DNA from: an uncultured bacterium
GTDB lineage: Bacteria > Patescibacteriota > Minisyncoccia > Phycocordibacterales > CAIJYI01
DNA length: 44,208 nt
NCBI GenBank assembly: GCA_903824855.1
Contig: CAIJYI010000045.1
Coordinates: 1 to 44,208, forward strand
Direction of reading: 5' to 3'
The position numbers were made by a program, and so were the translations under genes. Below are positions 8,425 through 42,840 of the stretch, in pieces. Each line of letters opens with the position of its first letter. Within the stretch, counting starts at the first letter, position 1. Below the pieces are notes generated by a model. It ran no database searches and was not told where the DNA came from. It saw nothing but the letters and a program-made list of their open reading frames with translations.

Positions 8425-9770
8425 TTTAAAATCTCCGTAAGTGCATGAACGAATTTATCAACGTCTTCATCGGTATTCATTTCCGTAACAGAAATGAGAA
8501 TATCGTTTTTATTTTCAGGATAATTATCTGCAAGAGCGATGCCGCCGAAAATTTTATAATCGGAGGCAAGACGGTGCAAGAGTTCACATCCTGATAATTT
8601 TGTACGAATGACAAATTCATTGAATGTTGTTCCTGAAAATGGTTCTTCAATATTTTTTATGAGAGAAAGACGAGATCTGAGAAGAAAGGCTTTTTCATAA
8701 TTCAACTCAGCCAATTGAGGCAATCCTTTTTTTCCGTGAAGAGTAAGATACATCGCTGCGGTAGTCGCACACAATGCTTCATTCGTACAAATATTTGAAG
8801 TCGCCTTCTCACGTTTGATATGTTGTTCGCGAGTTGCGATAACAATTACGAAAGCATCTTTCCCTTCTTTATCTTTACCGCGTCCGATGAGACGGCCGGG
8901 CAGGTTGCGAACATTCGCAGTGCCGGTGGCAATCAAACCTAAAAGCGGTCCGCCGAATGATGGTGGCAATCCGAATGATTGTCCTTCACCGACGAAGATA
9001 TCAACGCCGAATTCGCCCGGTGGTTTTAAGAGAGCGAGTGAGAGCGCTTCGGTTGTTACCGAGATAAGAAGTGTTTCAACTTTCGTCGCAACTTCTTTCG
9101 CTTCACCTAAATCTTCTATCACACCGAAGTAATTTGGATAGCCGACAACCATACACATGGCGTCAGTTATTTTTTCGGGATCAAAAATTGTTTTGCCTGT
9201 TTTTTCATCAAAAGGCAATTCGACAATCGGTACATCTATGTCACGCATATAAGTACTGAGTGTTTCTCTATAATGTGGATGAAGTGCTTTTGATACATAA
9301 ACAATTTTTCCTTTTCTGGAAAGTCGTTTAGCCATAAGTACCGCTTCCGCAGTTGCTGTTGCTCCGTCATAAAGAGAAGCATTCGCAACATCCATACCTG
9401 AGAGCATCGCGATGTATGTTTGAAATTCATACAAGGCTTGAAGTGTTCCTTGGGAAGCTTCGGGCTGGTATGGAGTATATGAGGTCAAAAATTCTTCACG
9501 AGAAAGAAGTGCTGAAATAGCAGCCGGTATAAAATGGCGATTTATGCCACCACCCAAAAAGGATGTTTTTTTAACGGCGGCTTCACTTTCTTCCGCAAAT
9601 TTTTCCATGACGGCGGTGAGTTCCATTTCGGAAAGCGGGGCCGGCAAATTAAGCGGTTTTTTCAAACGCAATTCCGACGGAATTTGTTCGAAGAGTTTAT
9701 CAACGTGATCTACGCCAATGGTTTCAAGCATCGCGTCATGATCACTTTTTGTTTCGGGAATATATCTCAT
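8421..9770 (-). CDS. gcvPA: Glycine dehydrogenase (decarboxylating) subunit 1
   Basis: FLGGGINRHFIPAAI, YTPYQPEASQGTLQALYEFQT, NASLYDGATATAEA; 4-bp overlap with gcvPB. Confidence 0.95.
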   Translation of the reverse strand: MRYIPETKSDHDAMLETIGVDHVDKLFEQIPSELRLKKPLNLPAPLSEMELTAVMEKFAEESEAAVKKTSFLGGGINRHFIPAAISALLSREEFLTSYTPYQPEASQGTLQALYEFQTYIAMLSGMDVANASLYDGATATAEAVLMAKRLSRKGKIVYVSKALHPHYRETLSTYMRDIDVPIVELPFDEKTGKTIFDPEKITDAMCMVVGYPNYFGVIEDLGEAKEVATKVETLLISVTTEALSLALLKPPGEFGVDIFVGEGQSFGLPPSFGGPLLGLIATGTANVRNLPGRLIGRGKDKEGKDAFVIVIATREQHIKREKATSNICTNEALCATTAAMYLTLHGKKGLPQLAELNYEKAFLLRSRLSLIKNIEEPFSGTTFNEFVIRTKLSGCELLHRLASDYKIFGGIALADNYPENKNDILISVTEMNTDEDVDKFVHALTEILK

Positions 9771-9895
9771 ACATCCTCCTGTTTTTCGATAGTTTTACCA
9801 ATTTTTTTTCGCTTTTCAAAGTGCGAAATTCTGAGTCTAGTATAACCACTTTTTGACGTAAAAGTCAACCCCCTGACCGATGAAAATAGTACACA

Positions 9896-9925
9896 AAAAA
9901 AAGACGGAAATATCCGTCTTTTTTA
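9896..9925. terminator. Intrinsic terminator
   Basis: AAAAAAAGACGGAAATATCCGTCTTTTTT. Confidence 0.8.
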
Positions 9926-9931
9926 TTTTTT

Positions 9932-10549
9932 TTATAGGTGCATTCCCTCTTGAAAAACATTTCCGCTTCGTGTCTGAATGGCTTCTTCTATTTTCTTCAG
10001 AACTTCGGGTATTCCTTCTTTTTTTTCTGCAGAGAATGGTATGAATGGAACCTTGCCGATGACCTCCATTATTTCTTTCAATTGTTTCGGTCTGGCGGTT
10101 TTGTTGATTCGGTCAAATTTATTTCCGATTACAATAAAAGGAATATTTCCTTCGGTGAGTGCTTTTATCATTTCGGTGTCGCGCTCGGTAGGTCCGATAT
10201 AGGCATCAATGAGAACGAGGACGAGAGATATCGGCGCATCGGATTCAAACAAATACCACATGATATATTTCACCAATTTTTCTTTATCACCGTCAGGGGC
10301 TCTGGCATAACCGTATCCGGGAAGATCGACAAAATAAAATTCTTTATTGATGAGGAAGAAATTGATCTCCTTGGTTTTTCCGGGAGATGAACTGGATTTA
10401 GCCAAACCTTTGTGATTGACCAGCGCATTGATGACGCTCGATTTTCCCACGTTTGAGCGCCCAACAAAAGCGAACTCCAACTTGGGATCGCCTAATATCG
10501 GATCCGTTCCGCGGATACCCTTTACAAATGTGGCTGAATCTATTTTCAT
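9932..10549 (-). CDS. engB: Ribosome biogenesis GTP-binding protein YsxC/EngB
   Basis: FAFVGRSNVGKSSVINAL, SPGKTKEINFF, VDLPGYGYA, GNKFD; likely start MKIDSATFVKG. Confidence 0.92.
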   Translation of the reverse strand: MKIDSATFVKGIRGTDPILGDPKLEFAFVGRSNVGKSSVINALVNHKGLAKSSSSPGKTKEINFFLINKEFYFVDLPGYGYARAPDGDKEKLVKYIMWYLFESDAPISLVLVLIDAYIGPTERDTEMIKALTEGNIPFIVIGNKFDRINKTARPKQLKEIMEVIGKVPFIPFSAEKKEGIPEVLKKIEEAIQTRSGNVFQEGMHL

Positions 10550-23318: not shown

Positions 23319-24416
23319 TTATTTTATCTTCCCTTTTTTGTTTCCTTTATACTTCATTTTTGGTAAAGGTTCAACAAATTCTTCTCTTGGGGAAATAACG
23401 GCACGACGATCTTCCCAACCTGTTTCTTTCTGTATTTCTCTCCAATTTTTTGGATCATTAATAGATGCTTCCAACTCGGTAATACGCAACGCAACACTCT
23501 TGATGTTGGTTATTTCTTCATACAACCAAATTGGTGTTGAAAGCGCATTGATAACTTCTCCGAGAGCATAGCTTGTTTTTGAAACAATACCGTATTTCAC
23601 AAATCCGGAGAATACATTATATCCAAAGAACGTAATAGGAAGCACCGACCACAACTGAGCATATAAGCCAATCCAGAGATCATACCAAAGTTTATTGTGG
23701 AATAATCGTAGATTTTTTTTCCTCATATTAATCATTAAATCGGTAAGCTTAGCGCAAGAATCATCACGATTTTTATTTCGTTGAAAAAATTCCAGAGCAC
23801 TTCGATATACAGCTTCTGCATCGTTTATGTCATATCTGCATTTTTTTAAGTTGATACCAAAAAATGAAGTAATCATAAGCGCTACGATACAGATGATAAG
23901 AACAATCCAAAATAATTTTCCGGGAACTTCACTGAAATAAAAGAAATCATAATATTTACTCAGTGCCCAAATTTGAGGTACAAACATAAAGAGTACTAAA
24001 ATCGCACGAACTGAAGATTTGACGACTCCCAGGAATTTATTTACAAACTCCTTGATGCTTACTTCCAGACGTTGTGATGGTCCGTCAATATCGCGAAGTG
24101 TTTTATTCCAATTCGGTAAATAATAGTATGTCATTGCTTCATACCAGAACCAACAATACAAACTTGATACTAAGTTAATGACCGCTCCTATTCCGATGAG
24201 GATAGCAGCAATTTTAACCGCTTCAAAAATAAATTTATCAAGAAGCTGTTCAAGCGAATAATCTTTTGATCCTGAAACGACATCCCCAAGTACCTGCATC
24301 CACTCGCCTAAACGAGAAGACGTTTCTACTTGAAAATAGAACAACGACAATAAGATAATGGCACCTCCAAAAGCAAGAGGCGCCCATTTCCAGCTTAAAA
24401 AATAAGACCGAAACAT
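23319..24416 (-). CDS. SbmA/BacA-like peptide transporter homologue
   Basis: Remembered SbmA order of motifs: WYEAMTYYYLPNWNKTLRDIDGPSQRLEVSIKEF, FFGINLKKCRYDINDAEAVYRSALEF, MRKKNLRLFHNKLWYDLWIGLYAQLWSVLP, LSTPIWLYEEITNIKSVALRITELE. Confidence 0.75.
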   Translation of the reverse strand: MFRSYFLSWKWAPLAFGGAIILLSLFYFQVETSSRLGEWMQVLGDVVSGSKDYSLEQLLDKFIFEAVKIAAILIGIGAVINLVSSLYCWFWYEAMTYYYLPNWNKTLRDIDGPSQRLEVSIKEFVNKFLGVVKSSVRAILVLFMFVPQIWALSKYYDFFYFSEVPGKLFWIVLIICIVALMITSFFGINLKKCRYDINDAEAVYRSALEFFQRNKNRDDSCAKLTDLMINMRKKNLRLFHNKLWYDLWIGLYAQLWSVLPITFFGYNVFSGFVKYGIVSKTSYALGEVINALSTPIWLYEEITNIKSVALRITELEASINDPKNWREIQKETGWEDRRAVISPREEFVEPLPKMKYKGNKKGKIK

Positions 24417-33659: not shown

Positions 33660-35294
33660 TTATTCTTCACTCATGAGTTCGACGAGGAATTTTGAGCCTT
33701 TGCCTTCTCCTTCCGACTCAATCCAAATACGCCCATGGTGCGCCTTAACGATTTCCTGCGCAATATAAAGTCCGATTCCGCTTCCGTCAGTATAAACCTT
33801 TTGCACTTCTTTTGCTCTACTGAATTTCTGAAAAAGATTACTTATCGTATCCTGCGAAAGCCCCATTCCCGTATCGGTGATAGTGATGAGAGTTTTACCG
33901 GTATCGGTGTCTTTCATAAGACGAACTTCAATACCTCCCGTCGCGGTATATTTTATTGCATTATCCAAAAGATTTGAAAATACCTGGCGAATCTTCCCGA
34001 CATCTGCCGTAATATTATAAGTATCATAATTATCTGTCGTAAAATGAAGAAATAATTTCTTATCTTGAATGGGAACAAGGAATTCATCAAGAAGTGTTCC
34101 TATCATTTTTCTCATTTCTACGGTCTCAAACTTATATGACATTTTCCCCTGCTCAATATGACTAATAGTAAGAAAGTCATCAATGATTGCCGCCAATCGA
34201 CGACCTGATTCATATACTTTAGTGACGACCTCTGAGGTTTTTACAGAAACCTGCCCGTATGTACCTTCGAGGAGCATAGAAGAATATCCGATGATAACCG
34301 TCACCGGCGTTCGAAGCTGATGCGAAGCGATAGAAACAAATTCGGATTTTTTCTTATCCATTTCACGAAGATGTTCATTTGCAACCTCAAGTTCTTCCGC
34401 GATTTTCCGAAGACTCTCACTTTGATCAATTTCACGATGGACGGTATTAATAAGAATGAGACCACCACCGACGACAAGAGCAAAAAGAATGCTGTTTACG
34501 ACAAGGTCCATAATTGATCCTGAAAGGAAGAGACGCATAAGCATCGCCACCCAGAGAACAAAAGTGACCGATTCAACCGCAACAGATTTTATATTGAATA
34601 AATTATGTCTGATAGTTGAATATCCGACAAAAATGGTCATAATAACGGAAGTAACGGGCCCGAACCAGTAGAGATTCCACCAGCCAAAATATGGCAAAAC
34701 AAGGTCTGTCATGACACAAATGAGCGAAGCAGAAAATGTTCCGGTAAAAAGAAAGAGAATTTGTTTTTTTACAATTGGACTTTCTGCACGATAATATTTT
34801 TCCAAAAGTAAATAAAAACAAGCAAAAAAATATATCAATATATACAAACCATAAAATATATATCCCGGACCAAAAATAAATTCCTTAACAGAAATACTGT
34901 CGGGTGGCGAAATGATAAAATCGGGAATATTTATTAAAACAACAATCCATATGTAAATGAGTATTGCGAGTATTTTTTTTCGCAAAGGCAAAAGAGAAAC
35001 GCTTCCATCAATTGATTCAACAAGAAAAAATAGAAAAAAAGGAAAACTTGCCGCTGAAAGATAAAGACATTTTGAAATAATACTTACCAAAACCAAACTG
35101 GTGGAATAATAAAATATTGCCATGCTAAAAACCCAAAGAGAAACAGAAACAGCGAGAAGTGAGAAGAAAATATTTTTTTCCTTATGTCTGTCTGTAAAAT
35201 AGATGAGAAGAGCAAAAACAAAATTAACTGTCCCGACAGAAAGAAGAAGAACATTCTTCATCTCCATTCCAATAAAAAAAGTAACGAGGTTCAT
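33660..35294 (-). CDS. Membrane sensor histidine kinase
   Basis: Multi-TM N-terminus; FVSIASHQLRTPVTVIIGYSSMLLEG (HisKA), N/G boxes VFSNLLDNAIKYT, ITDTGMGLSQD, GSGIGLYIAQEIVKAH. Confidence 0.92.
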   Translation of the reverse strand: MNLVTFFIGMEMKNVLLLSVGTVNFVFALLIYFTDRHKEKNIFFSLLAVSVSLWVFSMAIFYYSTSLVLVSIISKCLYLSAASFPFFLFFLVESIDGSVSLLPLRKKILAILIYIWIVVLINIPDFIISPPDSISVKEFIFGPGYIFYGLYILIYFFACFYLLLEKYYRAESPIVKKQILFLFTGTFSASLICVMTDLVLPYFGWWNLYWFGPVTSVIMTIFVGYSTIRHNLFNIKSVAVESVTFVLWVAMLMRLFLSGSIMDLVVNSILFALVVGGGLILINTVHREIDQSESLRKIAEELEVANEHLREMDKKKSEFVSIASHQLRTPVTVIIGYSSMLLEGTYGQVSVKTSEVVTKVYESGRRLAAIIDDFLTISHIEQGKMSYKFETVEMRKMIGTLLDEFLVPIQDKKLFLHFTTDNYDTYNITADVGKIRQVFSNLLDNAIKYTATGGIEVRLMKDTDTGKTLITITDTGMGLSQDTISNLFQKFSRAKEVQKVYTDGSGIGLYIAQEIVKAHHGRIWIESEGEGKGSKFLVELMSEE

Positions 35295-35296
35295 AA

Positions 35297-36358
35297 TTAT
35301 AAAATAATTTTTCCCCAACTTCTGAGGGGGGCTCTTTTAAATCCATTTTCTCGAGCTAACCGGGCAATAGTATCTACATTCTCCAAACTCACATGCCCGA
35401 CGGAAAAATCGTCATTGTATTTTTCTTTTGCGAGGATCATTGTTTCCGCCATACAAGAGAACGCTTCTCCTTTCGAAAGTCCCATTTTTGTCGTATACCC
35501 CACTCCTTCCGGCAGTTTAGATATAGCTCCGTCCACGACAACAACATCAGGTCTTTCTAGAGAGATTGATTTGGAAACATTTTGCGGTTGCGTCACATCA
35601 TATATGATTGCATTTTTCTTGAGCTTTTCAGATGTAAGGATTGTTCCTTCCGCACTGGTTGCAACAACGACAACATCGACATCGGCCACTTGCGTTAAAT
35701 TATCAGATACTTCAATTGATAAATTTGGATTTAATCGTATAAATTCCGCTTTTGCTTTTTGTAAATGTTCAGGCGTCCTTCCTATTAATATTGCATTTTG
35801 AACTCCTCCATCACGAATGAGTAATTTTGAAATACCGCTACCAATAGAGCCGGTCGCCCCGATGATTGCAAATTTCGCTTTCGACATATCAATATCTTTT
35901 TTTTGACAGATTGTTCGGATTCCCTCAAAGGCCATAAATACCGTAAGAGCGTTTCCGTTGGTAATTTTTGTTTTATACTTTCCGACCATATCTACGCCAC
36001 CTGAAACAACAACCGAGGTTAAGGATCCAAGCCCGATAATACGATTACCACGATTTGATGCAAGTTTGACTCCTCTCTCCACTTCACGAGATGCTTTTTT
36101 CCTATCTTTCATCATATCTCGCCCGGTCATGGGAATAGCAATAATTTCTCCTTTTACCTCTTCCCCATCATTAGTTTTTAGTCCATAAATTTTCCCCACA
36201 ACGAGAGGTCCCGTCATTAAAAGAATTTTTCTTAAAAGCCATTTGGGAATATATCGCGCTATGGGATATTTTACGTAAATATCTTCGAATCCTCGCGGGT
36301 GTATAAGAAAAGCAAAACGAAATTCTTTTAAGTTATTTTTTTTAATTAATTGATTCAT
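35297..36358 (-). CDS. Long-chain acyl-ACP reductase-like (AAR-family-like) oxidoreductase
   Basis: GLGSLTSVVV, ITNGNALTVFMA, AKFAIIGATGSIGSGISKLL (Rossmann), EAFSCMAETMILAKEKYNDDFSVGHVSLENVDTIARLARENGF, matching the cyanobacterial AAR layout including the catalytic Cys region. Confidence 0.7.
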   Translation of the reverse strand: MNQLIKKNNLKEFRFAFLIHPRGFEDIYVKYPIARYIPKWLLRKILLMTGPLVVGKIYGLKTNDGEEVKGEIIAIPMTGRDMMKDRKKASREVERGVKLASNRGNRIIGLGSLTSVVVSGGVDMVGKYKTKITNGNALTVFMAFEGIRTICQKKDIDMSKAKFAIIGATGSIGSGISKLLIRDGGVQNAILIGRTPEHLQKAKAEFIRLNPNLSIEVSDNLTQVADVDVVVVATSAEGTILTSEKLKKNAIIYDVTQPQNVSKSISLERPDVVVVDGAISKLPEGVGYTTKMGLSKGEAFSCMAETMILAKEKYNDDFSVGHVSLENVDTIARLARENGFKRAPLRSWGKIIL

Positions 36359-36363
36359 AAAAA

Positions 36364-36396
36364 AATATTTATGAACATATCATGTTCATAAATATT
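36364..36396. promoter_or_regulatory. Perfect 15-bp inverted repeat 5' of the AAR-like gene
   Basis: AATATTTATGAACAT-ATC-ATGTTCATAAATATT. Confidence 0.75.
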
Positions 36397-36428
36397 ATAT
36401 CATATTAAGAAACTAAAAACACAGAAAT

Positions 36429-37442
36429 TTATTTTTTTCTCAATTCTGCTTCTGGTTTTTTGACTATTGCCGAGATTACTTCAGAAATCCCACTTTGAAA
36501 CTCCACCGCCGGTTCATAGTGCAAAATTTCTTTTGCCAAACTTCCATCAAGCATAATATCTTTTCCGAGCATTGATACGGAAGATACCGTTAAAAGTGGG
36601 CGCTTTTTGACGTGTCGGACTCTGGCCCAAGTTTCCATTACGTACGCCAGAATATAGGCAAGAAAATATGGAAGGCAAGGGATTTTTCTGTTCATGTGAA
36701 CGGAATTTGATATTTTGTCAGTCAAATCTTTCCATGTCAGATGCCCGTCAACCGCAATAAAAATATTTTCTTTTTTTAATGTTGCCGTTCCTGCTTCTTT
36801 GATTAATCCCGCTAAATTATCGACATGAACAAAAGGAATATGATTCTCGGGGTTTCCAATAATCATCATCATTTTTTTTCTTGTTTGATACACTATTTCA
36901 GGAATAAAAGTAGAATCATTATATCCATATATCCAGCTTGGTCTGATAATAGCTACATCAATAAGTCCTTTTTTGTGGTAAGAAAGGAGCATTTCCTCCG
37001 CGACTCTCTTTGTTCCCGGATACCAATCGCGAGTTTGCACGAGGGGTGAATTTTCATTTTTTATTCCGCGTTGAGTAAAATCTATGACAAACAAAGTGCT
37101 AATAAAAACGAATTTTTTTACTCCACTTTTTATTGCTTCTTCAACAAGATTTCTCGTCCCCTCAACATGAACATCCCTATAAAGAGATTTCGGAGCCCAA
37201 TCGGTAACCACACCGGCAAGATGATAGACGATATCAACTCCTTCTAGTTTTCCATTTAATGTTTCTTTTTTTGTGATATCCGCTCTCACAAAATCAATTC
37301 CGGAAAAATTATTTGGGATAGGCTCATCATTATAAACCATTGCCTTTATGGTGTAGTTATCAGGAGAGAATTTTTTTAACAACGCTTCCCCAAGAAACCC
37401 AACTGAGCCGGTTATAAAAACAGTTTGTTTATTTAGATTCAT
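36429..37442 (-). CDS. NAD(P)-dependent extended SDR (3-beta-HSD/epimerase-like)
   Basis: TVFITGSVGFLGEALLKKF, VYHLAGVV, YPGTKRVAEEM (YxxxK). Confidence 0.85.
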   Translation of the reverse strand: MNLNKQTVFITGSVGFLGEALLKKFSPDNYTIKAMVYNDEPIPNNFSGIDFVRADITKKETLNGKLEGVDIVYHLAGVVTDWAPKSLYRDVHVEGTRNLVEEAIKSGVKKFVFISTLFVIDFTQRGIKNENSPLVQTRDWYPGTKRVAEEMLLSYHKKGLIDVAIIRPSWIYGYNDSTFIPEIVYQTRKKMMMIIGNPENHIPFVHVDNLAGLIKEAGTATLKKENIFIAVDGHLTWKDLTDKISNSVHMNRKIPCLPYFLAYILAYVMETWARVRHVKKRPLLTVSSVSMLGKDIMLDGSLAKEILHYEPAVEFQSGISEVISAIVKKPEAELRKK

Positions 37443-37461
37443 ACTTAAAAAGTTTTTTGAA

Positions 37462-38181
37462 TTATTTTTTAGAGTTCGGGATTTCTAGTATTTTTTTCAT
37501 TATTCTTTCCTCGGCAATTTTCGAAAAATTTTCGGGAGTAGCATCGTCATATCCTGCAAAAATTTCCTCAGGATAGATTGGTTTACCAAAAGTAAGGATG
37601 GAATATCTTTTACGCAAGAAAAAATCTGAAGCACTCGTGTTTCCGTGACCGGATAAGTAAATAGGGATAACCGGTAGCCCTGTGGCTTTCACAAGCGCAA
37701 CCACGCCGCCTCTAATTTCCGCAGGGTTATCATTGCGCTTTACTTTGCCTTCCGGAAAAATCTCAACATTTTTACCTTTCCTTAAAAATTCAATGTGACG
37801 ACTAAGAGATTTATCAAAATCTTTAATCCCCTTTTCCACCGAGTAAGCCCCGATAAAACTGAATAACCACGGTCTATAAAAAAAACTTCTTGTTGTGTTT
37901 TGTTCTTTATAATACTTTCGTTTTAATGCAACACAATATATCGGTATATGTTTTGAGAAAATATTAAAAGCGCAAGAAGGCATCAGTGCGTCCATTTCAC
38001 TTATGTGGTTAAGCGCAAAAATTACGTTTGTTGAAACATTTTCAAGATTTTCCTTTCCTCGAACCTCAAAGTGCAAAAAGAATTTAAAAATAGGAGTTAA
38101 TAGTATCCATGCAATTCTTTGCCCAATCTCGGCGACCCAAGAAGGAAACTCAAAATTTGAATCATTTAATTCAGGTTTCAT
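37462..38181 (-). CDS. 1-acyl-sn-glycerol-3-phosphate acyltransferase-like (PlsC family)
   Basis: FALNHISEMDALMP (NHxxxxD), VEIFPEGKVKRN, LPVIPIYLSGHG. Confidence 0.88.
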   Translation of the reverse strand: MKPELNDSNFEFPSWVAEIGQRIAWILLTPIFKFFLHFEVRGKENLENVSTNVIFALNHISEMDALMPSCAFNIFSKHIPIYCVALKRKYYKEQNTTRSFFYRPWLFSFIGAYSVEKGIKDFDKSLSRHIEFLRKGKNVEIFPEGKVKRNDNPAEIRGGVVALVKATGLPVIPIYLSGHGNTSASDFFLRKRYSILTFGKPIYPEEIFAGYDDATPENFSKIAEERIMKKILEIPNSKK

Positions 38182-38243: not shown

Positions 38244-38278
38244 AAAAAACTCGTTGAAATTAATCAACGAGTTTTTGT
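38244..38278. terminator. Intrinsic terminator
   Basis: AAAAACTCGTTGAAATTAATCAACGAGTTTTT. Confidence 0.85.
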
Positions 38279-42288: not shown

Positions 42289-42507
42289 TTACGTACGTAT
42301 TTCAAATTCGTTATATGAAATATTTATATCTCGACATATTTTTAAAACCGTCCCCGCCATCACTTCTCCATTTCCGTGTTTTGGAACAACGGTAATTTTT
42401 CCTTCCTTATTTTCAAAAATTATGTGGCTTCCTCTTTGACGTTTTTCATTGTATCCGAAATGATTCAAAGCACATACGACTTGCTTAAATTTGAGGACTT
42501 TAGGCAT
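42289..42507 (-). CDS. hicA: HicA-type toxin (YcfA-like)
   Basis: MPKVLKFKQVVCALNHFGYNEKRQRGSHIIFENKEGKITVVPKHGNGEVMAGTVLKICRDI. Confidence 0.88.
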   Translation of the reverse strand: MPKVLKFKQVVCALNHFGYNEKRQRGSHIIFENKEGKITVVPKHGNGEVMAGTVLKICRDINISYNEFEIRT

Positions 42508-42763
42508 ATTCCATTTTATAAGGAATAACGCCCAAAAATCGGTTTTCACTTTTGATTATATTTAAAAACTTTTTTTCCCCGTAATGTTCTTTCAGTAATA
42601 ACATTACTTCATTCAAATTTTTTACCGCTTCTTCCAGTGTCATTCCATCAGCATGAGCACCAATTATTCCCGGAATAGAAACGATAAAACCGCCGGAAAA
42701 ATCTTTTTCCACAAGAATGTTGGCATCAAAAATTTTTTTATGAATTTTTGCAGTATTTTTCAT
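42500..42763 (-). CDS. hicB: HicB-type antitoxin
   Basis: NILVEKDFSGGFIVSIPGIIGAHADGMTLEEAVKNLNEVMLLLKEHY; 8-bp overlap with hicA. Confidence 0.85.
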   Translation of the reverse strand: MKNTAKIHKKIFDANILVEKDFSGGFIVSIPGIIGAHADGMTLEEAVKNLNEVMLLLKEHYGEKKFLNIIKSENRFLGVIPYKMEYA

Positions 42764-42800
42764 AAACAAATAATACCATAAATATGAGTCAAAAACAATC

Positions 42801-42840
42801 AAAAAAATACCGCTATTTCTAGCGGTATTTCTCTTTGAGT
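42801..42840. repeat. 40-bp direct repeat copy 2 (5S trailer/terminator)
   Basis: AAAAAAATACCGCTATTTCTAGCGGTATTTCTCTTTGAGT. Confidence 0.93.

Follow-up and report, generated by a model that had tools for sequence, protein, structure and literature searches.

A candidate synthase/receptor cassette that pairs an AAR-like acyl-thioester reductase with a 7TM histidine kinase in a CPR genome

In the 44,208-nucleotide stretch of DNA from a CPR bacterium of very small size that we analyzed (the window), an AAR-like acyl-thioester reductase is encoded directly ahead of a histidine kinase with a 7TM sensor. These two genes form the conserved core of the locus, a two-gene cassette beside a resident plsC. 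Across related loci, a change of synthase gene goes with a change in the sensor half of the kinase, a coupling that neither the kinase half nor PlsC shows. The reading that best accounts for these observations, and that we favor with moderate confidence, is that the cassette encodes a synthase and a receptor for a fatty-aldehyde-type signal.

Organization of the locus

The four minus-strand genes described by an earlier, sequence-only reading of this DNA, which encode PlsC, an extended SDR, the AAR-like enzyme and the kinase, are all genuine and are confirmed at their coordinates (Table 1). The kinase start was likewise correctly placed close to the reductase stop, with the ATG beginning 2 nt past the stop codon. 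The proposal that all four genes form one operon is not supported, as the SDR and AAR genes are separated by a 70-nt gap that holds an inverted repeat, a T-run and a TATAAT, and an SDR between PlsC and AAR was found in no other locus examined. The SDR is a lineage-specific insert, and the suggested four-gene linkage is therefore conserved for PlsC, AAR and the kinase but not for the SDR. Judged from its sequence, the inverted repeat upstream of AAR may be either a transcription boundary (an A+T-rich terminator) or an operator. The core of the repeat has one perfect copy genome-wide, with the next best copies carrying 2–3 mismatches; because that perfect copy is the only one, evidence for a regulon is absent, and we rejected the palindrome as a regulon operator. 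The TATAAT is a weak candidate for a −10 box, since it is absent from the consensus-scan list.

Table 1. Coordinates of features at the locus, numbered within the window
Feature	Position	Strand	Basis
Histidine kinase with 7TM sensor, 544 aa	33660..35294	-	PF16927 HisKA_7TM 3.1e-13, HisKA 1.1e-16, HATPase_c 9.3e-25
7TM sensor half of kinase, residues 1-268	34491..35294	-	AF2 model, tree tests
Kinase half (HisKA + HATPase_c), residues 316-540	33675..34349	-	Domain matches, tree tests
AAR-like acyl-thioester reductase (AAR/PigE N-domain family), 353 aa	35297..36358	-	HMM, PDB-sequence and fold matches
Codon of predicted catalytic Cys302, AAR-like enzyme	35453..35455	-	Alignment with cyanobacterial AAR catalytic Cys
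Perfect inverted repeat, 15+15 nt arms, 3-nt loop, followed by T-run on minus (coding) strand	36364..36396		Sequence
TATAAT, possible −10 box of AAR-kinase transcript	36394..36399	-	Read from sequence
Extended SDR (Epimerase/3Beta_HSD family)	36429..37442	-	Nearest NCBIfam: OleD-like reductases, far under cut-off
PlsC-family acyltransferase, 239 aa	37462..38181	-	PF01553 1.5e-16
Terminator-like hairpin, dnaJ-plsC gap	38245..38276		Sequence scan

The HisKA_7TM domain is N-terminal in the kinase, and an AF2 model of the sensor half is helical throughout (pLDDT 88.3). Six kinases were found in the genome, and this is the only one with the 7TM sensor type. A fold comparison of the sensor yielded nothing stronger than weak similarity to GPCR 7TM bundles (best E 3.5e-3), which we attribute to shared seven-helix topology and not to kinship. 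PlsC retains the NH-x4-D and FPEG motifs and is the sole PF01553 match in the genome; in many relatives its gene lies 3′ of dnaJ as a resident of the locus.

The reductase belongs to the AAR/PigE family

Sequence and structure comparisons place the 353-aa protein firmly within the AAR/PigE family of thioester reductases. In an NCBIfam profile search its best-scoring family is NF053554 (PigE, 5.9e-48), followed by matches to TIGR04058, the cyanobacterial AAR profile (1.7e-30), and to the PDB sequences 4ppm (4e-24) and 6jzq (5e-17). Both profile scores fall under the curated equivalog cut-offs (for TIGR04058, 106.5 bits against 449.7), so we assign the protein to the family and not as an equivalog. 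The AF2 model (pLDDT 89.7) superimposes on 6jzz with a Foldseek E of 2.8e-24 and a TM of 0.79. The hallmark motifs were correctly recognized in the sequence-only reading: GATGSIGS, a GxxGxxG Rossmann motif, TNGNALT, and SCMAETM, whose Cys302 aligns with the AAR catalytic cysteine and is Cys in 28/28 of the relatives that cover the position. Full-length family similarity, the Cys and Rossmann motif, and the fold thus all agree. Pfam matches to Shikimate_DH, F420 and DapB cover the Rossmann part only, and an unrelated dehydrogenase was rejected on the NCBIfam, PDB and fold results. We predict that the protein is an NAD(P)H-dependent, fatty-aldehyde-forming enzyme. For the reductase and kinase, then, the family assignment, the retained cysteine and the conserved linkage described below all came out as the earlier reading had anticipated.

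A kinase-linked slot for unrelated synthases

AAR is followed directly by the 7TM kinase in 22 of 26 genomes, usually 3′ of dnaJ-plsC. Of the other four, one has a single gene between AAR and the kinase, two are ended by the contig and one (G002) is an exception. AAR also adjoins a 7TM kinase in loci from Nitrospirae, Omnitrophota, Elusimicrobia and Chloroflexi. The AAR gene of Negativicutes sits in a kinase-free cluster of housekeeping type, so AAR is not always a signaling gene. Fusions of AAR domains to PlsY are present in other CPR.

In relatives that keep the 7TM kinase, the AAR slot is occupied by a PF12147 methyltransferase (MT20), by BioF/CqsA-like or FeeM/LuxI-like (Autoind_synth) enzymes, or by a 550-aa protein without assignment. 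Two genomes of one genus illustrate the exchange, with the order dnaK-dnaJ-c16-PlsC-AAR-HK-TrpRS in G531 and dnaK-dnaJ-c16-PlsC-MT20-HK-HK-TrpRS in G600; genus g451 shows the same AAR/MT20 swap between fixed neighbors. Every slot enzyme is also of a lipid-modifying type, an observation that speaks against a signaling role. Of the FeeM matches, only some adjoin a 7TM kinase, and the others are different GNAT-type proteins. Mutual exclusion of AAR and PF12147 was likewise set aside, with 0 joint genomes of 399 where 1.2 were expected, a difference that is not significant. No NCBIfam name supports the PF12147 methyltransferase as a PhcB homologue, and its plasmid matches are YnbC-like proteins.

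The sensor half travels with the synthase

Over 40–41 kinases, the sensor-half tree requires 3 changes of synthase type against 12.3 when shuffled, whereas the kinase-half tree requires 11 against the same 12.3. The history of PlsC is independent of synthase type. The contrast is evident in individual pairs: G654 (AAR) and G631 (MT20), which belong to the same genus, share 22% identity in the sensor and 65% in the kinase, whereas G654 and G047, both with AAR but from different genera, share 56% and 24%, respectively. Among AAR loci, synthase distances correlate with those of the sensor (r 0.63, p 5e-4; partial 0.61) and not with those of the kinase half (r 0.16; partial 0.03). The MT20 loci taken by themselves show little contrast of this kind, with correlations of 0.42 for synthase and sensor and 0.38 for synthase and kinase. 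The mosaic resembles that of agr and comQXP and suggests the lipid product of the synthase as the ligand of the sensor.

This pattern could arise in part from recombination geometry, as the synthase and sensor half are adjacent and crossovers would naturally fall in the conserved HisKA region.

A proposed fatty-aldehyde signal and its alternatives

In the mechanism we propose, AAR would use Cys302 and NAD(P)H to convert an acyl thioester into a fatty aldehyde, which may be used directly or after further modification. This lipophilic product would enter the membrane or exit the cell and serve as the ligand of the 7TM sensor, and the kinase would relay the signal to one of the small, unlinked response regulators of the genome. 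None lies beside the four genes, as the sequence-only reading had remarked; eight are encoded elsewhere, some without an adjoining kinase, namely those at C25:12346, C44:26693 and C33:28519 and one flanked by pilus-type genes at C21:12370. The locus thus has the conserved synthase-kinase adjacency of a communication cassette and a sensor that varies with the synthase while the kinase core does not, but lacks a linked cognate response regulator. Fatty-acid synthesis, which the earlier reading noted to be incomplete in many CPR, is absent here as well: the genome yielded no ketoacyl synthase, carrier protein or AMP-ligase, so the donor of acyl groups must be either external or derived from membrane lipid. 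PlsC running in reverse, from phospholipid to acyl-CoA, is a possible source. In relatives, a common receptor chassis combined with other synthases would yield distinct signal types.

More tentatively, and with somewhat less than even expectation, we propose that a fatty-aldehyde-type AAR signal exists in CPR and several other phyla and is served by a dedicated class of 7TM receptor kinases, that unrelated synthases are exchanged together with the sensor half, and that the signal is perhaps built from host lipids, since these organisms make no fatty acids of their own. Our literature search found no fatty-aldehyde quorum signal of this kind.

The chief alternative, which we regard as rather unlikely, is remodeling of membrane lipid with product feedback, which comes near the purpose inferred in the earlier reading, the remodeling of a membrane derived from a host: PlsC, SDR and AAR would modify acyl chains or lysolipids acquired by scavenging, and the kinase would sense and adjust the membrane of its own cell, with no cell-to-cell signal. 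The slot enzymes are all lipid or acyl enzymes, the genome has no match to PlsY and no fatty-acid synthesis, AAR-PlsY fusions occur in other CPR, and PlsC usually adjoins the cassette, its presence being associated with that of AAR or the PF12147 methyltransferase (Fisher p = 8e-4). Feedback sensing of a product would also couple sensor to synthase. However, known autoinducer synthases occur in the families of several slot occupants, the history of PlsC is unlinked to synthase type, the SDR is not conserved, and there is no obvious need to exchange a whole chemistry inside one genus. Remodeling alone does not predict unrelated synthases in the slot with only the sensor half co-traveling, and a synthase/receptor pair fits these two features better.

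It is improbable that the synthase and sensor half merely move together as neighbors, with the HisKA region and plsC as crossover sites and a sensor ligand unrelated to the product. Physical linkage alone can produce correlated trees, and the identity change-point in the kinase (residues 239 to 304) does fall near the conserved HisKA start. Yet the sensor tree needs only 3 changes, so mismatched synthase-sensor pairs are rare over great divergence, and AAR precedes the same sensor type in other phyla too. Least credible, to the point of being very improbable, is a non-fatty thioester substrate (compare PigE, TamH domains and the carmabin terminal reductase domain) in a specialized-metabolite locus regulated by the kinase: the PigE N-domain is the best-scoring relative, the carmabin TAD matches the fold and a class-V aminotransferase adjoins AAR in G020, but the genome lacks a carrier protein or AMP-ligase and the window locus lacks an aminotransferase.

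If the synthase/receptor reading is correct, AAR, familiar from alkane biosynthesis, would join the known classes of signal synthase. CPR bacteria, which lack most biosynthesis, would then have retained a dedicated means of chemical communication, or of sensing their own lipids, that draws on acquired acyl chains. The ready-made synthase/sensor pairs and natural swaps within a genus (G531/G600 and G654/G631) make the question of the ligand directly testable.

Relation to known systems

The window enzyme shares with cyanobacterial AAR (TIGR04058; PDB 6jzq, 6jzu and 6jzz) the whole-length fold, the Rossmann motif and the position of the catalytic cysteine, and differs from it in having ~22% identity in the fold alignment, a genome without ACP and a linked kinase. 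The N-terminal thioester reductase domain of PigE from prodigiosin biosynthesis (PMC8341465) is the nearest family by sequence and has the same catalytic cysteine; unlike PigE, the window enzyme has no fused aminotransferase, and the window contains no prodigiosin genes.

Synthase genes adjoining membrane sensor kinases are already known from CPR, where 51 CqsA-kinase and 18 LuxI-kinase neighbors are reported (PMC7567580), and BioF/CqsA-like and FeeM/LuxI-like enzymes share the slot described here. AAR, the PF12147 methyltransferase, the slot exchange and the sensor/kinase mosaic are not among the pairs described in the portions of that report that we consulted, and on that footing AAR and the sensor-half exchange appear to be new. 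In contrast to CqsA/CqsS, the window has AAR in place of an alpha-oxoamine synthase. PhcB/PhcS of Ralstonia, whose signal is a fatty acid methyl ester (PMC8578825), also combines a methyltransferase with a sensor histidine kinase and a lipidic signal; the likeness to the PF12147 loci seen here is one of pairing.

A parallel to the mosaic is found in pherotype loci, where the genes that make the signal vary, as does the sensing portion of the receptor kinase, and the kinase part is conserved. In agr, a hypervariable region spans signal and receptor genes (PMC10482373), and in comQXPA a variable N-terminal ComP domain stands beside a conserved cytoplasmic domain (PMC4008528). Those systems exchange variants of one peptide chemistry, whereas the enzymes exchanged here are unrelated and act on small molecules. 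If our reading holds, swapping an entire chemistry along with its matching sensor half is a step further than the exchange of alleles known from agr and comQXPA.

Identity and arrangement of the four genes

All four minus-strand open reading frames proposed in a sequence-only reading are present in the window (table). SDR and AAR are separated by 70 nt that contain a perfect 15+15-nt inverted repeat followed by a T-run, as well as a TATAAT, and a terminator-like hairpin lies between dnaJ and plsC. These signals therefore point to two likely transcription units, plsC–SDR and AAR–kinase, instead of the single operon suggested by that reading. The kinase ATG (35294) falls 2 bases past the AAR stop codon.

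Features in the window, its own genome (C, contig) and related genomes (G) or compared loci (L)
Feature	Position	Strand	Matches
PlsC	37462-38181	-	PF01553
SDR	36429-37442	-	Epimerase/3Beta_HSD; nearest NCBIfam models OleD-like reductases, far under cut-off
AAR	35297-36358	-	NF053554 (PigE) 5.9e-48; TIGR04058 (AAR) 1.7e-30
Kinase	33660-35294	-	HisKA_7TM, HisKA, HATPase_c
HicA toxin overlapped by weak HicB-like partner	42289-42802	-	PF07927 7.2e-15
SbmA/BacA-like membrane protein	23319-24416	-	PF05992 6.2e-39
CheY-like response regulator	C21:12370-12705		
~550-aa slot protein	L089:3194-4855; L090:2950-4593		
~230-aa stand-alone proteins	L018:1085-2501 and 8760-10168; L015:5180-5863; L089:6533-7228		
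PlsY–AAR fusions	L039:5954-7678; L040:6112-7863; L047:4852-6708		PF02660 2.2e-44 (L039); PlsY part by eye (L040, L047)
Second PlsC fragment	G002:C1:70702-71019		

Both AAR profile scores are under the equivalog cut-offs, and the PDB matches are 4ppm (PigE) and 6jzq (AAR). An AlphaFold2 model of AAR (pLDDT 89.7) is matched over its full length by cyanobacterial AAR structures, the best being 6jzz (E 2.8e-24, TM 0.79), followed by carmabin terminal reductase domains. The proposed catalytic cysteine, Cys302, is retained in 28/28 relatives that cover the position. The N-domain of PigE belongs to the AAR-like thioester reductases and carries Cys296 (PMC8341465).

The window makes up one contig of a CPR-type genome of 1.106 Mb, in which we found no match to PlsY, an AMP-binding ligase, a ketoacyl synthase or an acyl carrier protein with searches that were positive in control genomes. 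The genome holds one PF01553 protein, eight response-regulator matches and, by the kinase-half profile, six kinases, of which the window kinase alone carries a 7TM sensor. A CheY-like regulator between pilB-like and pilT-like genes (by eye) is possibly the output of an orphan kinase. Elsewhere in the window, HicA and its partner are a probable toxin–antitoxin pair, and an SbmA/BacA-like protein is encoded in this CPR genome.

Linkage of AAR to the 7TM kinase

AAR relatives were found in 11/149 relatives, 26/399 genomes of the order and 14/389 of the phylum, the last including some more distant proteins. Of the 26 AAR genomes of the order, 22 have a 7TM kinase immediately downstream of AAR; one gene intervenes in G020, the kinase is four genes away and adjoins PlsC in G002 (the window's genus), and in two the contig ends, leaving this position out of view. 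Distances between the genes range from -98 to +97 nt, and one recurring order is grpE-dnaK-dnaJ-(c16)-plsC-AAR-kinase-trpS. PlsC and either AAR or the PF12147 methyltransferase tend to occur together (14/20 vs 39/129, Fisher p = 8e-4). The proposed four-gene linkage stands for AAR–kinase and PlsC but not for the SDR, which among the loci compared sits between PlsC and AAR in the window alone. The second PlsC fragment next to plsC in G002 is possibly a decaying duplicate.

AAR also adjoins a 7TM kinase in loci titled Nitrospirae, Omnitrophota, Elusimicrobia and Chloroflexi, and Anaerolineae carry AAR–regulator–kinase strings. In L199-L248 (Chloroflexi, Anaerolineae) these read hexapeptide-repeat protein–AAR–response regulator–sensor kinase, often preceded by an alpha/beta hydrolase and a DUF4388 protein. 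The Negativicutes AAR cluster has no kinase: L188-L204 and related loci (Negativicutes, other Firmicutes) share CoaX–DusB–304-aa protein (no Pfam)–AAR–GreA–LysS, named partly by eye, and the family would have a different role there. In other CPR classes, AAR domains joined at the N terminus to a PlsY-like G3P acyltransferase keep the catalytic Cys and adjoin a GpsA-like gene (by eye), which suggests that AAR in other CPR also acts within phospholipid synthesis.

Interchangeable synthases in one slot

In relatives, other enzymes replace AAR in the position flanked by plsC and the 7TM kinase. The PF12147 methyltransferase (MT20) occurs in 19/399 genomes, in 17 of these directly upstream of the 7TM kinase. 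Other occupants, in few cases each, are a BioF/Kbl/CqsA-like PLP enzyme, a FeeM/Autoind_synth-type acyltransferase with a second methyltransferase, a 550-aa protein without Pfam or NCBIfam match, and PlsC2 with a HAD phosphatase. The ~550-aa family is a candidate synthase. In dnaJ–plsC loci without any slot enzyme (L091, L092, L093), the 7TM kinase was not seen. Within genus g431 the same neighbours flank AAR in G531 and MT20 in G600; genus g451 has AAR in G654 and MT20 in G631. The ~230-aa proteins beside cassette kinases apparently consist of membrane helices only, without a clear Pfam family.

The kinase is a mosaic

We labeled each locus by its nearest upstream gene, from mechanical gene calls. 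In a tree built from 59 sensor domains, the synthase labels cluster strongly, with 6 changes for AAR (19.9 shuffled) and 4 for MT20 (14.9 shuffled). When both parts of the same 41 kinases are compared, the labels need 3 changes on the sensor tree (12.9 shuffled) and 12 on that of the kinase part (12.8 shuffled). An independent build gave 3 and 11 changes (12.3 shuffled), with 0/1000 shuffles as low for the sensor and 277/1000 for the kinase part; after removal of long branches, near-copies and extra kinases, the values were 3 (0/2000) and 9 (P 0.39). The AU test rejects the tree of either part on the other part's data. The PlsC tree does not track the label (6 changes vs 6.2).

In pairwise comparison, G654 and G631, of one genus with different synthases, share 22% identity in the sensor and 65% in the kinase half; G654 and G047, of one family and both with AAR, share 56% and 24%. 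G531 and G600 share 29% and 65%; the window and G002, of one genus and both with AAR, share 29% and 64% (AAR ~38%). Change-points fall at kinase residues 239-304, ahead of the HisKA core. AAR distances correlate with those of the sensor (r 0.63, p 5e-4; partial 0.61) and not with those of the kinase half (r 0.16; partial 0.03). The contrast is weak for the methyltransferase (0.42 vs 0.38), and in the PlsC-bearing subset PlsC distances correlate with AAR (0.44) and the sensor (0.52).

Discussion

The synthase and the sensor half together act as a single unit, flanked by PlsC on one side and the kinase half on the other, both resident at the locus. Physical linkage alone could produce part of this correlation, but mismatched synthase–sensor pairs are rare across deep divergence, which argues against linkage as the whole cause. 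Most simply, the 7TM sensor would recognize the product of its own synthase. For AAR, this would be a fatty aldehyde or derivative, a ligand that fits a sensor lacking any large soluble domain; structure modeling predicts a helix bundle. The product would either exit the cell as a signal or remain in its membrane as feedback.

HdtS is a PlsC-family protein. A 2020 report describes CqsA- and LuxI-homologue genes adjoining sensor kinases in CPR and counts HdtS homologues among the possible AHL synthases (PMC7567580). Our literature search for AAR in Patescibacteria returned nothing relevant. Within the reach of our searches, the new elements are the occupation of one slot by AAR and by the PF12147 methyltransferase, synthase exchange at a fixed locus within a genus, and the sensor/kinase mosaic. 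In agr and comQXPA, receptor specificity tracks the signal.
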